A DNA stretch of 64,000 nucleotides from Gillisia mitskevichiae. GTDB lineage: Bacteria > Bacteroidota > Bacteroidia > Flavobacteriales > Flavobacteriaceae. The stretch covers positions 248,001 to 312,000 of the forward strand of contig NZ_RBLG01000002.1 in NCBI RefSeq assembly GCF_003634585.1. Direction: 5' to 3'. The translations under genes were made by a program, and so were the position numbers. Positions 38,873 through 47,616 of this stretch are shown piece after piece. Below the pieces are notes generated by a model that made no database searches, was not told the origin of the DNA, and saw nothing but the letters and a program-made list of their open reading frames with translations. The first letter of the stretch is position 1. Every line of letters begins with the position of its first letter.

Positions 38873-39208
38873 ATGAAAAATGAATCAAAATACTGGTCCA
38901 AAGAAGAATTAAAAGTTTACATCTTATTGCTTTGCGCCAAGGCAGACTCAGTTGAAACCATTGAAGAGATCAATATGATAAGATCTAAAATAGATCCTGA
39001 AACCTTTGATAGACTATATAATGAGTTCAGCTGTGATGATGAAGATAATTGTCTGGACAAAATACAGTCGGCAATTGCCAAACATGAATATTCTAATAAG
39101 GAAATTATCGGGTTAAGAAAAGAAATACATGCAGTCTTCTTAACAGATAAAAAATTTAATATGAAAGAACGAAACCTAGATAGAATCCTAGATAGCATGC
39201 TTTATTAG
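38873..39208 (+). CDS. Small acidic all-alpha protein, possibly TerB-like
   Basis: A 111-residue soluble protein. The pattern YILLLCAKADSVETIEEINMIRSKI, then DKKFNMKERNLDRILDSML recalls the TerB fold (helical pairs with D-x-x-E spacing), but I do not recognise a close family. It starts 64 bases after the PycTM-like gene on the same strand and may be cotranscribed with it. It could be a partner of that membrane protein; this is inference from position. Confidence 0.65.
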   Translation: MKNESKYWSKEELKVYILLLCAKADSVETIEEINMIRSKIDPETFDRLYNEFSCDDEDNCLDKIQSAIAKHEYSNKEIIGLRKEIHAVFLTDKKFNMKERNLDRILDSMLY

Positions 39209-42282: not shown

Positions 42283-42696
42283 ATGTTAGATAAAATAGAT
42301 CTAAAAATTATAGAGGTATTACATCAAAATTCGCGAGCCTCCTTTGTTGAAATTGGAAAACTAATACCACTCTCAGCATCTTCAGTTAGGGAACGAATTC
42401 AAAAATTAGAGGAATTGGAAATAATTAAAGCTTATACTCTAAAAGTAGATTATTCCAAAATGGGTTATGGCTTAGAGGTTTTTATAATGATTAAATTATT
42501 TAGCGGGAAATTAGAAAGCTTCATGGCAGCTTTGGATTCCTTTCCTGAAATTAAAAGGGCTATACGTATAACTGGTTCTCATAATATACATATGAAGGTG
42601 GTTTTAAAAGATCAGTTACATCTGCAAAGATTTATAGATATGCTTATAAAATATGGAGAACCCACTACTCAACTAATACTATCGGAGTTGAAATAG
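42283..42696 (+). CDS. Lrp/AsnC-family transcriptional regulator
   Basis: A 137-residue regulator: an N-terminal winged helix (LDKIDLKIIEVLHQNSRASFVEIGKLIPLSASSVRERIQKLEE) and a C-terminal RAM ligand domain (FIMIKLFSGKLESFMAALDSFPEIKRAIRITGSHNIHMKV). The effector is probably an amino acid or similar acid. It diverges from the TauE permease gene with about 110 bases between starts, so that gene is the likely target. Confidence 0.92.
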   Translation: MLDKIDLKIIEVLHQNSRASFVEIGKLIPLSASSVRERIQKLEELEIIKAYTLKVDYSKMGYGLEVFIMIKLFSGKLESFMAALDSFPEIKRAIRITGSHNIHMKVVLKDQLHLQRFIDMLIKYGEPTTQLILSELK

Positions 42697-42871: not shown

Positions 42872-43123
42872 ATGAATACTATTTTAGAACCAAAAACACC
42901 TATAGATCCCATTTCATATATCACTGCAATAAAAATGCATGTGGATGAACTTTATGAAAAACAAGAGATTTTCGGACTTTCCTTAGAAACTTTAGAATTA
43001 ACAAGACGGTTTTATAATTTATATACTCCATTAGAACAAGTAGATAATTTGACTCCCTTTGCAATTAATCAACTATTATCGATATCACAACATCTAGAAC
43101 GTAATCTAGTAAAAGAATCTTAA
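42872..43123 (+). CDS. Small protein of unknown function
   Basis: An 83-residue, largely helical protein (YITAIKMHVDELYEKQEIFGLSLETLELTRRFYNLYTPLEQ) with no signal or membrane segment. I do not recognise a family. The composition and clean ATG suggest a real gene. It stands alone between the Lrp gene and tRNA-Arg. Confidence 0.6.
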   Translation: MNTILEPKTPIDPISYITAIKMHVDELYEKQEIFGLSLETLELTRRFYNLYTPLEQVDNLTPFAINQLLSISQHLERNLVKES

Positions 43124-43249: not shown

Positions 43250-43323
43250 GGTCGCGTAGCTCAGTTGGATAGAGCACCTGCCTTCTAAGCAGGCGGTCCC
43301 AGGTTCGAATCCTGGCGCGATCA
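43250..43323 (+). tRNA. tRNA-Arg (anticodon TCT)
   Basis: A 74-nt tRNA with acceptor arms GGTCGCG and CGCGATC and discriminator A. The anticodon TCT at 43284-43286 sits in a CCTGC/GCAGG stem; the T arm is CCAGGTTCGAATCCTGG. CCA is not encoded. It reads AGA/AGG. Confidence 0.97.
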
Positions 43324-43794: not shown

Positions 43795-45657
43795 ATGACC
43801 TCAGACTTAACCGAAATATCAGAATTATCAGAAAAATCGATTAAGCTAATATTAACAATTGTAGAGAATGAAAATGAAATTAATGCCACTCTTCCCGGAG
43901 GTGGGATATTACATATAGAAAAAGAACTTCCATATTTAATTATATACAGGCAAATATCAAATGATCCTGATACATATAGAATGGTTATCAGTGAGTCTTC
44001 ATATTTAATTATTGGAACTTCAGATTTTAGTGGTTACCAGAAATTGTTGTTCGAACTATCTAATTTACTATCTACGAAGTACAAATCTTATTTATTGTTG
44101 GAACTCTACACTGGAGAACAAGCTAGTAACAGTTTTATAATAAAGGGTCCCGAGAATAAATTACCCACAACTCTCGATGTACTAAAAAAAGAGTTAGATA
44201 CCATCAATTCTACTTTTTCTGGGCTTTATTTAAAGACCGAAATAAAAGACACTTCCCACAGGCAAGCAGAAGGGCAAAGAGAGCTTTTAAGTGTAGAGGA
44301 AGCTAAACAGTGCGGAGCTTTGCTTTTAGGTCTAGAGATCCCTCCTATTTACCGAGATGACAATCTTAAAACCTTTCCCGTTTTCTTTAGAAATTTTAGA
44401 GATTTTATAAATAGAGCCGTACATATTGCGATTTTTGATTACATAAGAGTGCAAACTTCATCTGGCGTAGCTAGCTATAATGCTCTTGGTAGAAAATATC
44501 TAAAAGAGAAAGTGTTTGAGATCGATAAAAAGTTAGCAGATATAGAAAAGTCATATCAGTTCTTATGGTTAGTCTCTCCAGTAAATATTCATGATATCAA
44601 AGAGAGCTTTCTGGGAAGTAAATACGAGAAACTATTAGATTATCACTACCGCTTGCTTCCAATAGATCCAGATGTTATAAAGCGTAAACTTTACAATTTA
44701 AAGATCGAGGAAATAGACGATCCAGCAATGTCTTATCTCTTTAGAGAAAAAAGAGAGGAGCTAGATCAACAAATTACGATGTTAAGCGAAAGAGGTACTA
44801 AAAATTTTCTTTATGATAGTGTAAGACTATACCAAGGTATAGATCCTCATCTATGCAGTGAGGCTAATCAAATTCTAGAGAAAATTCCAGAAGCTGAATT
44901 TTCTAAAACAGATAAAATTTTAGACAGCAAGGCTTTTAGTAGTCTAGCCAGAAAAGAATTTGATTTTTTTAGAAATCAGGATCAAAATTTTAAATGCAAA
45001 GTGCACATTCGTAAAGATGTGAACATTATGATGGTTTCCCAAGGGGAACTTTATATTCCAGAAGATTATGAATTAAGTGAAATTGATGCCAGAGGTCTAA
45101 TTCAGCATGAAGTAGGCACTCATGTGCTTACCTATCATAATGGATTACAACAACCACTAAAACAACTAAGCATTGGGCTAGCAGATTACGACCCACTGCA
45201 GGAAGGATTGGCAGTAATGTCTGAATATCTTGTAGATGCACTTACACCAAATAGGCTTAGAACTCTCGCAGGAAGAGTGATCGCTGGCGAAGCTGTAAAA
45301 GAAGGTGGGGATTTTCAAGAAATATTTAGACTACTCACTCGCAATCATGGTTTTTCACCAGAAAGAGCATTTAATATTACTTCCAGAATAATGCAAGGAG
45401 GCGGATTCTTAAAGGATATAATTTATTTAAAGGGATTAGTAGATCTTAGAAAATACTTACAAGATGGAGGAGATTATGAATCATTACTTTCTGGAAAGTT
45501 TGCTTTAAAGCATACAAAAATAATAGAAGAACTTACAGATAGAAAAGTACTGAAAAAGGGAACATTACGCCCAAATTATCTCATGAATGAAGAATCATCC
45601 AAAAGAATTAAATTAATTAGAGACGGGTTACCTATCTCACAAATGATAACCAAATGA
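43795..45657 (+). CDS. QEGLA-motif (DUF1704/MATCAP-like) metallopeptidase
   Basis: A 620-residue protein of the family annotated as flavohemoglobin expression-modulating QEGLA motif protein. The zinc motif is HEVGTH (His438, Glu439, His443) and the QEGLA motif is at 469-473, with a further acidic residue in SEYLVD. The eukaryotic members (MATCAP) are carboxypeptidases that remove the C-terminal Tyr of tubulin, so a tail-trimming peptidase is the best guess here. It starts an operon and overlaps the ATP-grasp gene by 4 bases (ATGA). The target is unknown. Confidence 0.85.
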   Translation: MTSDLTEISELSEKSIKLILTIVENENEINATLPGGGILHIEKELPYLIIYRQISNDPDTYRMVISESSYLIIGTSDFSGYQKLLFELSNLLSTKYKSYLLLELYTGEQASNSFIIKGPENKLPTTLDVLKKELDTINSTFSGLYLKTEIKDTSHRQAEGQRELLSVEEAKQCGALLLGLEIPPIYRDDNLKTFPVFFRNFRDFINRAVHIAIFDYIRVQTSSGVASYNALGRKYLKEKVFEIDKKLADIEKSYQFLWLVSPVNIHDIKESFLGSKYEKLLDYHYRLLPIDPDVIKRKLYNLKIEEIDDPAMSYLFREKREELDQQITMLSERGTKNFLYDSVRLYQGIDPHLCSEANQILEKIPEAEFSKTDKILDSKAFSSLARKEFDFFRNQDQNFKCKVHIRKDVNIMMVSQGELYIPEDYELSEIDARGLIQHEVGTHVLTYHNGLQQPLKQLSIGLADYDPLQEGLAVMSEYLVDALTPNRLRTLAGRVIAGEAVKEGGDFQEIFRLLTRNHGFSPERAFNITSRIMQGGGFLKDIIYLKGLVDLRKYLQDGGDYESLLSGKFALKHTKIIEELTDRKVLKKGTLRPNYLMNEESSKRIKLIRDGLPISQMITK

Positions 45658-46703
45658 AAATATGTTTTGTAGTAAATGGTATTGAGACAGAAACCTGTGG
45701 TACCACTGTGTATATTATGTTTGAAGCTTTAAAGAGAAAACATGAAGTACATATGATGGGAGTGGGAGATTTCAACTTTAAACATGATGAATCTATAAGT
45801 ATTAATAGTGTGTCCTTATCCAAAAATGCAGATCCTAAATCTCCCGAAGAGTATTTGGAACTATTGCAAAGTGATAAGGCTAAGAAAAAAACAATAGTTG
45901 CTAAAGATTTGGATGTATTATTCATTAGAAATAATCCTACAGAAGAAGGTAGTTCTAGACAATGGGCAGAACAAGCTGGAGTAGCATTTGGAAGAATGAT
46001 ACAACAAGAAGGAGTGCTGGTTTTAAATGATGCCTATGCCCTATCTAATGCTTTTATAGATAAGTTATATTTTGAAGAGCTTCCTAGCAGTATTAAACCT
46101 GCTTCTTTGATCACAAGAAAGAAAGAAGATATTTTAGATTTTTTCGAAAAGCACAAAAAGAAAATGGTTTTAAAACCATTAGAAGGATCGGGAGGTCGAG
46201 ATGTATATCTAATAGATAAAAATGAAAAGAATTTAAATCAGATCATAGAAAACATCACCCAACAAGGTTACGTAATTGCCCAAGAATTCCTTCCGGCAGT
46301 TAAAGATGGTGATGTACGGGTTTTATTGATGAATGGTCGTGTAATGGAAAAAGATGGTACCTATGGTATTATTAGACGTGTAGCTGGAAAGGGCGAGTTT
46401 CGTAGTAATTTTTCTCAAGGTGCTTCAGCAGATAGCAGTCCGCTTACGGATGCCATGAAAAAAATTATAGAGATCACAGCTCCCAAATTAATTAGGGATG
46501 GATTGTTTTTTGTTGGATTAGATATAGTAAAAGATAAATTAATTGAAATTAATGTGTTAAGCCCCGGAGGCTTAGATCATTTTAAAGAAATTGGATTACC
46601 AGATTTTAGCGATGTAATAGTGAAATCTATCGAGAAAAAAGTGGAATATAAACGCTTATATGGGAATACAATTTCTAATAGAGAATTAGCCACAATGGCC
46701 TAA
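45654..46703 (+). CDS. Glutathione-synthetase-like ATP-grasp ligase
   Basis: A 349-residue ATP-grasp enzyme resembling GshB: an N-terminal pre-ATP-grasp domain (ICFVVNGIETETCGTTVYIMFEALKRKHEV), the conserved KPLEGSGGRDVYLI lid, VIAQEFLPAVKDGDVRVLLMNGRVM, and the metal-binding LIEINVLSPGGLDHF. These enzymes join an acyl phosphate to an amine, usually an amino acid. No gshA lies next to it; instead it sits between a MATCAP-like peptidase (4-base overlap) and an AstE/AspA-like hydrolase (13-base gap). A role in adding amino acids to a peptide or small molecule is likely. Confidence 0.85.
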   Translation: MKICFVVNGIETETCGTTVYIMFEALKRKHEVHMMGVGDFNFKHDESISINSVSLSKNADPKSPEEYLELLQSDKAKKKTIVAKDLDVLFIRNNPTEEGSSRQWAEQAGVAFGRMIQQEGVLVLNDAYALSNAFIDKLYFEELPSSIKPASLITRKKEDILDFFEKHKKKMVLKPLEGSGGRDVYLIDKNEKNLNQIIENITQQGYVIAQEFLPAVKDGDVRVLLMNGRVMEKDGTYGIIRRVAGKGEFRSNFSQGASADSSPLTDAMKKIIEITAPKLIRDGLFFVGLDIVKDKLIEINVLSPGGLDHFKEIGLPDFSDVIVKSIEKKVEYKRLYGNTISNRELATMA

Positions 46704-46716
46704 AACCAATTAATAC

Positions 46717-47616
46717 ATGGAAAATAATTCCAGAATAATAGGAACGTATACAACCTATAATAAAGGCCCGTTATTGTTTATAACTGCAGGTGTTCACGGC
46801 AATGAGCCTTCTGGGGTAGAAGCTTTAGAGCGAGTTTTTGCAGCATTAGAAAAATCTAAGCCTCAAATAAACGGTTGTATAGTGGGAGTCTTTGGGAATA
46901 AAGCCGCATTAAAGAAAAAGGTACGTTATATAGACGAAGATTTAAATAGGACCTGGACCGAAACGAACATTAGTTTAGAGAAAAAGGAAACTAGTGAACA
47001 GAAAGAAATGCATGAGATCATTGAAATTCTGGAAAAGTTTCCTGAAGCAGATTATTCCAAGCGCTATTTTATGGATTGCCACACAACCTCATCAGATAGC
47101 TTACCGTATATTTCTGTACAGTTAGTAAACGATAATGATAAATGGGCACATCATTTTCCAACCTATATCGTTCAAGGTTTTAGTGATATTGTATATGGAG
47201 CCATCGATCATTATTTAAGCCGTATTGGATTAACTGGATTTACTTTTGAAGCTGGCCAGCATACTAGTAAAAATTCCGTAGAAAATCATGAGGGGATGAT
47301 TTGGCTTGCACTTAAAGAAGCTTGTAATTTAGAACTGACTCAAATTCCAGAATATCCTGCATGTGTTGAAAAATTTTCAGTGAAGAATGCGCCTACTCAA
47401 AAGACCTTTAAAATAATTTATAGACATGGACTTGAGGAAAATGACAATTTTAAGATGAAATCTGGGTTTAAAAATTTTCAAAAAATATATAAAGGAGATC
47501 TTTTAGCGATTCAGAATGACCAAGAACTAAAAAGTGAATGGGATGCACGAATCTTTATGCCGTTATACCAGGCTCAAGGGAATGATGGCTTCTTTGTTAT
47601 TGAAGAGGTAAAATAA
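46717..47616 (+). CDS. AstE/AspA-like zinc hydrolase (M14 superfamily)
   Basis: A 299-residue member of the succinylglutamate desuccinylase/aspartoacylase family. Zinc ligands are His27 and Glu30 in GVHGNEPSG and His122 in MDCHTTSSDS; DEDLNRTW carries the conserved Asn-Arg substrate pair; FTFEAGQH holds the probable catalytic Glu. It cleaves N-acyl amino acids or related amides. It ends the operon with the ATP-grasp and MATCAP-like genes, before a strong hairpin at 47629. It is not in an arginine-degradation context, so true AstE activity is doubtful. Confidence 0.85.
   Translation: MENNSRIIGTYTTYNKGPLLFITAGVHGNEPSGVEALERVFAALEKSKPQINGCIVGVFGNKAALKKKVRYIDEDLNRTWTETNISLEKKETSEQKEMHEIIEILEKFPEADYSKRYFMDCHTTSSDSLPYISVQLVNDNDKWAHHFPTYIVQGFSDIVYGAIDHYLSRIGLTGFTFEAGQHTSKNSVENHEGMIWLALKEACNLELTQIPEYPACVEKFSVKNAPTQKTFKIIYRHGLEENDNFKMKSGFKNFQKIYKGDLLAIQNDQELKSEWDARIFMPLYQAQGNDGFFVIEEVK

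Follow-up and report, generated by a model that had tools for sequence, protein, structure and literature searches.

A recurrent bacterial gene module predicted to encode a MATCAP-type metallopeptidase, a GshB-like ATP-grasp ligase and, in most cases, an amidohydrolase

The Gillisia mitskevichiae locus

The 64,000-nucleotide stretch of Gillisia mitskevichiae DNA analyzed here (contig NZ_RBLG01000002.1, positions 248,001 to 312,000; "the window" below) carries three adjacent genes on its plus strand, which we call Q, G and A. Gene Q (43795..45657, 620 AAs) encodes a two-domain metallopeptidase of the MATCAP/DUF1704 type according to Pfam family PF08014, an AlphaFold2 model and its structural matches; gene G (45654..46703, 349 AAs) encodes a GshB-like ATP-grasp ligase of subfamily PRK12458 by its match to NF009110; and gene A (46717..47616, 299 AAs) encodes an AstE/AspA-type zinc hydrolase by its match to PF24827, its motifs and its predicted structure. 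The stop codon of Q and the start codon of G share the bases ATGA, a 4-base overlap, and 13 bases separate G from A. An earlier sequence-only reading of this DNA had described three tightly linked genes of these families, and the coordinates, overlap, gap, Pfam scores and motifs found here all agree with it. The Q-G-A set is conserved within the genus of the window and also occurs in some further genomes, and we show below that, as judged from sequence, it is one form of a recurrent module of one predicted ATP-grasp ligase, one MATCAP-type metallopeptidase and, mostly, one amidohydrolase.

The Q protein matches the MATCAP family over residues 270–608 with 269.8 bits (cut-off 27). Its HEVGTH motif (residues 438–443; 45106..45123, plus strand) and QEGLA motif (residues 469–473; 45199..45213, plus strand) contain H438, E439, G441 and H443, and Q469, E470, G471 and A473, respectively, all of which are invariant in 48 aligned sequences including the window's; in a wider set HExxxH is present in 118 of 119 and QEG in 116 of 119 proteins. 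The third metal ligand of human MATCAP lies within an EEG motif (PMC10499314), so by alignment with that protein E470 of Q is probably its third metal ligand. The AlphaFold2 model of Q (pLDDT 91.8, pTM 0.81) has human MATCAP (7z5g) as its top match among solved structures (E 1e-9, TM 0.70 by target length). The next match is a weak one to YndL (E 1.8e-3), a poly-gamma-glutamate hydrolase; the output does not print the matched range, but from the length and fold class it is probably the N-terminal domain of Q that matches. A single-sequence phmmer search of the solved structures with Q gave no match; the profile of A1 did match human MATCAP among them. Score, HExxxH with a third ligand in EEG/QEG, and predicted fold thus all place Q among the MATCAP proteins. 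It scores 300.4 bits with the NCBIfam model TIGR02421 ("flavohemoglobin expression-modulating QEGLA"), under the cut-off of 338.65, which bears out the earlier suspicion that the flavohemoglobin name is misleading.

The N-terminal domain of Q (approximately residues 1–235, 43795..44499, plus strand; the boundary is approximate) is a relative of F, the N-formylglutamate amidohydrolase (FGase)-like proteins encoded next to Q in most other loci (below). A profile of 103 Q N-terminal domains aligned by hhalign with one of 76 F proteins at a probability of 94.8 (E 4.9e-8; in the reverse direction 91.2, 1e-6), while the probabilities against A and G were only 0.2 and 0.3, respectively. The two metal motifs are kept in 75 and 72 of the 76 F proteins, and neither is present in any of the 103 Q domains. 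Because of this profile kinship and the missing motifs, Q appears to bear an FGase-like domain whose metal site has been lost, with the metal-bearing enzyme being encoded by a separate gene; F-Q fusions (L035 is an example) do contain the metal motifs at that position. A metal-dependent amidohydrolase within the Q N-terminal domain is ruled out by the same count (0 of 103). A short Q in genome G022 (L036, 6907–8058, plus strand) lacks HExxxH, and the whole trio of that genome is found at L037. In two relatives Q is fragmented (L052 in G004, L053 in G014); the latter locus also has a fragmented second copy of G and a shortened A.

The G protein scores 167.5 bits with Pfam GSH-S_ATP (PF02955, cut-off 23) and 433.4 bits with NF009110, the model for the GshB-like subfamily PRK12458 (cut-off 408). 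It falls below both glutathione-synthase equivalogs (TIGR01380, 191.4 versus 299.05; NF003573, 195.9 versus 272) and scores 80.6 bits with the RimK family model TIGR00768, under its cut-off of 143.4. PRK12458 has been counted as GshB (PMC3462692). The sequence-only reading had named an ordinary glutathione synthetase as the identity of G that would refute its proposal, and on profile scores that identity is ruled out for the window's protein. The module-type G proteins score 336–488 bits with NF009110 and other GshB-like copies no more than 241, except in G014, where a tandem copy is broken and its pieces reach 257 and 135 bits; genomes G001, G002, G285, G286 and G530 have a module-type G together with one other GshB-like copy. 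The G that accompanies the short type of Q at L055 passes NF003573 (281.6 bits) and fails TIGR01380 (237.4), so this short-Q group may lie closer to genuine GshB. Elsewhere in the G. mitskevichiae genome, outside the window, a second ligase-like cluster (L153, G000:C2:90500-97500) encodes, one after another, a weakly G-like protein of 483 AAs, a GCS2-family protein of 406 AAs and a weakly F-like protein of 228 AAs. Ten matches lie in phage records, where they are annotated as glutathione synthase, S6 glutaminyl transferase or hypothetical protein, or are unannotated; the glutathione-synthase-like ones include matches in the phage-filed records AGRM01000002.1 and OR851139.1, the former of which bears the title of a Salmonella genome.

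Linkage of Q and G in other genomes

The link between Q and G is real and wide. Among 40 genomes (the window's own and its relatives) 20 encode MATCAP proteins; these same 20 also encode a G of at least 336 bits with NF009110, which the remaining 20 lack. Of 247 genomes from the window's phylum, 15 have MATCAP. A G of at least 396 bits accompanies it in 14 and is absent from all 232 genomes without MATCAP; the exception is G223, whose 424-AA MATCAP has no G within its 14-kb stretch (L054). The 299 Pseudomonadota genomes include 29 with MATCAP and eight with a G of at least 399 bits. In seven of the 29 (G286, G293, G324, G380, G400, G460 and G530) G adjoins MATCAP, and the other 22 lack such a G altogether; the eighth G, in G396, starts 48 bases into its contig, and no MATCAP was found in that genome. 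We opened 20 Pseudomonadota stretches, from six of the seven linked genomes (not G460) and 11 of the 22 others. F, a long Q and G are together in G286, G293, G324 and G380, G530 has an F-Q fusion and G, and G400 has Q and G with no F in the stretch; no G or F is present in 12 stretches from 11 of the 22 unlinked genomes, nor in a further stretch with the second MATCAP of G286. The unlinked proteins are mostly 390–550 AAs long, with one of 702 AAs and one 165-AA piece; the Pseudomonadota MATCAPs were divided into these two types once the scores were known.

A wider scan covered one genome per species in 84,980 species. Its 566 relatives (591 stretches) were ranked by their match to a Q of the long type, and the best 80 of the 566 were kept. 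Q and G are together in 79 of these 80 loci, and in the remaining one (L139) the contig ends 98 bases past Q. The loci carry the labels of 13 phyla, and many are from metagenome-assembled genomes. G lies on the strand of Q in 75 of them by script and in L123 by inspection, and on the opposite strand in L107, L113 and L147, as does the nearest whole G of L077. In the 97 Q-G pairs that share a strand, the genes lie a median of 1 base apart, and 42% of the pairs overlap by 4 bases; the script took the first possible start as the start of each gene, so these gaps are approximate. Two or more frames were called G in 16 of 114 loci; these include separate copies (three each in L089, L102 and L103) and single G genes split in two (L080, L083, L120 and L053). 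The two Planctomycetota loci L102 and L103 have the array F-Q-G-G-Q-G. Rare co-occurrence outside close relatives had been named beforehand as the observation that would speak against a functional trio; Q and G instead adjoin one another across phyla, with the exceptions just given.

The third gene: A or F

The A protein scores 73.5 bits with Pfam AstE_AspA_cat (PF24827, cut-off 25) and keeps the motifs HGNE, DLNR, D-C-H-T and EAGQH, whose residues are invariant in 17 sequences (C121 nearly so). By this score, an HxxE plus later H metal motif and DLNR it belongs with the AstE/AspA zinc hydrolases; it is below the equivalogs for AstE itself (TIGR03242, 64.5 versus 305.65) and aspartoacylase (NF002601, 58.3 versus 180), and it aligns with aspartoacylase over the HGNE, DLNR and D-C-H-T motifs. 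Its model (pLDDT 85.8) has AstE and DoeB/EutE as top solved matches, followed by aspartoacylase and CphZ.

In most other loci the third gene is F. The gene before Q is annotated as N-formylglutamate amidohydrolase in all four of the rhizobial plasmid regions that were opened (of 127 matching records), and the F sequences examined, five separate proteins and two fusions, all contain PF05013; two F examples are far under the HutG cut-off (22.2 and 28.8 versus 278.75 bits). By script F is present in 63 of the 80 scan loci and A in six; F was additionally seen in L133 as an overlapping frame and in L130 as a fragment at the contig edge, and in L083 and L106 the contig ends upstream. F and MATCAP form a single protein in L035 and L040 (by Pfam), L058 (by our own profile) and L156 (Pseudomonadota genome G530), and such fusions are also found in one Photobacterium record, where the fusion follows G, and in one Vibrio record. 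F and A were not found together in any of the 114 loci. The genus of the window has A, as do two further genomes of its family and five named Flavobacteriaceae loci; Litoribacter also has A, divergently placed. In a quick tree of Q without a sure root, which omits 14 loci (12 near duplicates and the two with broken Q, L052 and L053), there is a single F/A change among the 93 labelled rows of 106. An F-type amidohydrolase is the usual third partner, then, and A replaces it in the window's lineage. The earlier proposal that the trio is a bacterial module therefore stands in part: the Q-G pair is general, but AstE/AspA is not its general partner. Direct comparison of the F and A profiles gave probabilities of only 5 and 10, and from the profiles no kinship is evident. 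Both presumably have M14-like folds, and the families of both are known to hydrolyze N-acyl acidic amino acids (N-formyl-Glu, N-succinyl-Glu, N-acetyl-Asp). These observations put three labels in doubt (flavohemoglobin modulator, glutathione synthetase and desuccinylase), and a bacterial MATCAP branch that travels with one ligase and one amidohydrolase becomes a three-gene problem with defined chemistry.

Possible function

In the mammalian cycle of N-acetylaspartate and N-acetylaspartylglutamate (NAA/NAAG) the ligase is RIMKLA/B, the carboxypeptidase GCPII and the aspartoacylase ASPA. We consider it possible, with a probability of roughly 0.45, that G, Q and A or F run a similar ligation and hydrolysis cycle on a small acidic amide. 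At the expense of ATP, G would couple an amino acid, most likely an acidic one such as glutamate, to a carboxylate group on a small molecule, for example an oligo-glutamyl compound or an N-acylated amino acid; Q would then take off the C-terminal residue, and A (or F) would split the remaining N-acyl amide to give a free acidic amino acid. The metal-less FGase-like domain of Q might, as a guess, serve in docking or in holding the substrate. Enzymes of the MATCAP/TMCP type take off C-terminal residues and trim chains of glutamate (PMC10499314). Such a cycle seems the most economical reading because it takes in third enzymes from families that cut N-acyl acidic amino acids, a peptidase from a family that trims C termini and an opposing GshB-like ligase.

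The likeness to the NAA/NAAG cycle is that a zinc carboxypeptidase is combined with an ATP-grasp ligase and with a deacylase of the AstE/AspA family, A being a member of the aspartoacylase superfamily; the module differs in that its peptidase is of the MATCAP type, its ligase is GshB-like, and an FGase-like protein stands in for A at most bacterial loci. With the enzymes of tubulin tails (TTL/TTLL, MATCAP/TMCP and CCP) the module has in common the fold and metal motifs of MATCAP, present in Q, but G and A are outside the TTL and CCP families. The survey of Iyer et al. 2009 is said to describe ATP-grasp amidoligases with diverse peptidases in operons, and may mention this gene set. Human MATCAP was described in 2022 as a tubulin carboxypeptidase (Landskron et al., cited in PMC13269789). 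The RimK-RimB/RloABC system of Pseudomonas likewise pairs a peptidase with an ATP-grasp protein at a single locus, and mutants without the RloA proteases fail at low osmolarity; its peptidase is a retropepsin-like aspartic protease, and the excerpted text describes no MATCAP, FGase or AstE (PMC12239564).

Expression data from one published set hint, less strongly, at a role in osmotic adjustment. In Photobacterium damselae a "GshB" gene and a QEGLA gene with consecutive locus tags are 38.4- and 27.5-fold up in 1% versus 3% NaCl, and a RimK gene elsewhere in the genome is induced 52.2-fold at low salt; the induced "GshB" is treated there as glutathione synthetase (PMC10308900). Since the two tags adjoin and a Photobacterium relative has G followed by an F-Q fusion, we read the pair as the module, in which case the induced "GshB" may be G. 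COG3930 is the QEGLA family. Consecutive tags (VV2_1203/1204) are also borne by a COG3930 protein and a "glutathione synthetase" of Vibrio vulnificus, in which another COG3930 protein, VV1_0515, is apart (PMC3091676). It is doubtful that all of these elements hold together, that is, that one bacterial MATCAP branch works with a GshB-like ligase, an FGase/AstE enzyme and a docking domain in a reversible acidic-amide cycle that is an osmotic counterpart of NAA/NAAG in bacteria. If they do, the module may reveal the ancestral chemistry of the tubulin carboxypeptidases.

Several observations weigh against the small-molecule cycle. Some Q proteins do without a ligase nearby: a Vibrio F-Q fusion (L148) has no G in 17 kb, a second, 640-AA long-type Q of G380 (L160, G380:C24:11000-22000) is accompanied by none of G, F and A over 11 kb while a whole set is present elsewhere in the genome, and the Q copies of L036 and L054 have no nearby G. 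Likewise, seven of the 80 scan loci (L100, L105, L111, L120, L121, L123 and L128) have room upstream but neither F nor A. To our knowledge, no activity or substrate has been established and no mutant described for any member of the module. CphZ, a cyanophycin dipeptide hydrolase, is also among the structural matches of A. The salinity data are from one species, with genes identified by annotation. A GltP-like symporter gene precedes the short-Q form in several relatives (the L034 protein has 262.7 bits, cut-off 638) and fits a small-molecule cycle, but its position may reflect synteny alone, since it is also present beside Q in the L036 stretch, from which both G and F are absent. Among the 40 largest neighbor clusters no acyltransferase for N-acyl amino acids was recognized, though no family-by-family search was made. 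Finally, RimK, which is also an ATP-grasp enzyme, attaches glutamate to a ribosomal protein (PMC12239564).

An unlikely alternative is the protein-tail cycle raised by the earlier reading, in which G would add a residue, probably glutamate, to the C terminus or a side chain of a protein, Q would trim it and A or F would remove the last residue, much as TTL/TTLL, MATCAP and CCP work on tubulin. In its favor, the fold of Q is that of MATCAP, and protein tails are the targets of the human MATCAP/TMCP enzymes (PMC10499314), with RimK-RimB as a bacterial precedent on ribosomal protein S6 (PMC12239564); against this, G scores 191–196 bits with the glutathione-synthase models and only 80.6 with that for RimK, and no candidate substrate protein was seen to recur in the clustered neighborhoods. 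The AstE and FGase families are moreover known for small molecules. It is also unlikely that the module edits a cofactor or oligo-glutamate side chain, G lengthening a glutamate chain and Q with F or A shortening it, as in methylofuran or F420 synthesis. The enzymes that make the polyglutamate of methylofuran are ATP-grasp ligases. This side chain is a long one, and its enzymes have been identified (PMC8141765). Two or three whole G copies in some loci (for example L089, L102 and L103) would suit such a role, as would the extra domain of Q, which is probably the part that matches the poly-gamma-glutamate hydrolase YndL; but no cofactor-biosynthesis gene was recognized among the recurrent neighbors, for which no family-by-family search was made.

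Glutathione-like thiol metabolism, with G making glutathione or a close analogue and Q and A or F recycling it, is improbable. G is within the GshB family, the L055 protein passes one of the two glutathione-synthase models (NF003573, not TIGR01380), and the G. mitskevichiae genome has a GCS2-family match (81.8 bits); that match, however, is located in the other ligase cluster (L153), the window's G fails both equivalog cut-offs, the module-type G is set apart from other GshB-like copies by NF009110 in genomes some of which hold one of each, and PF04262 (GshA) was found in none of the 21 genomes searched, the window's own included. That the genes are functionally unlinked and neighbors by chance could be argued from the Q copies without G and the limitation of A to one lineage, but the co-occurrence, adjacency and fusion across phyla leave this a negligible prospect, and the counts in the phylum and Pseudomonadota genomes rule out a chance neighborhood. 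In the open-licence literature we found no paper on the role of bacterial MATCAP relatives and, among the matches listed, none that has N-formylglutamate together with ATP-grasp or MATCAP.

Surroundings of the trio in the window

Promoter-like sites are no commoner than by chance (27, versus 27.3 in shuffled sequences). Upstream of Q are a tRNA gene (43250–43323) and, by profile scan, a gene for an Lrp/AsnC-type regulator (42283–42696), and downstream of A a lactonase-type propeller is encoded on the opposite strand. An open frame of 83 AAs (42872–43123, plus strand), just 5' of the tRNA gene, is by eye the window's member of a cluster with L043, L049, L052 and L146. Also by eye, a 111-AA protein (38873–39208, plus strand) is the window's member of a cluster with small proteins of L034, L062 and L126, which in those three loci are encoded between G and F.

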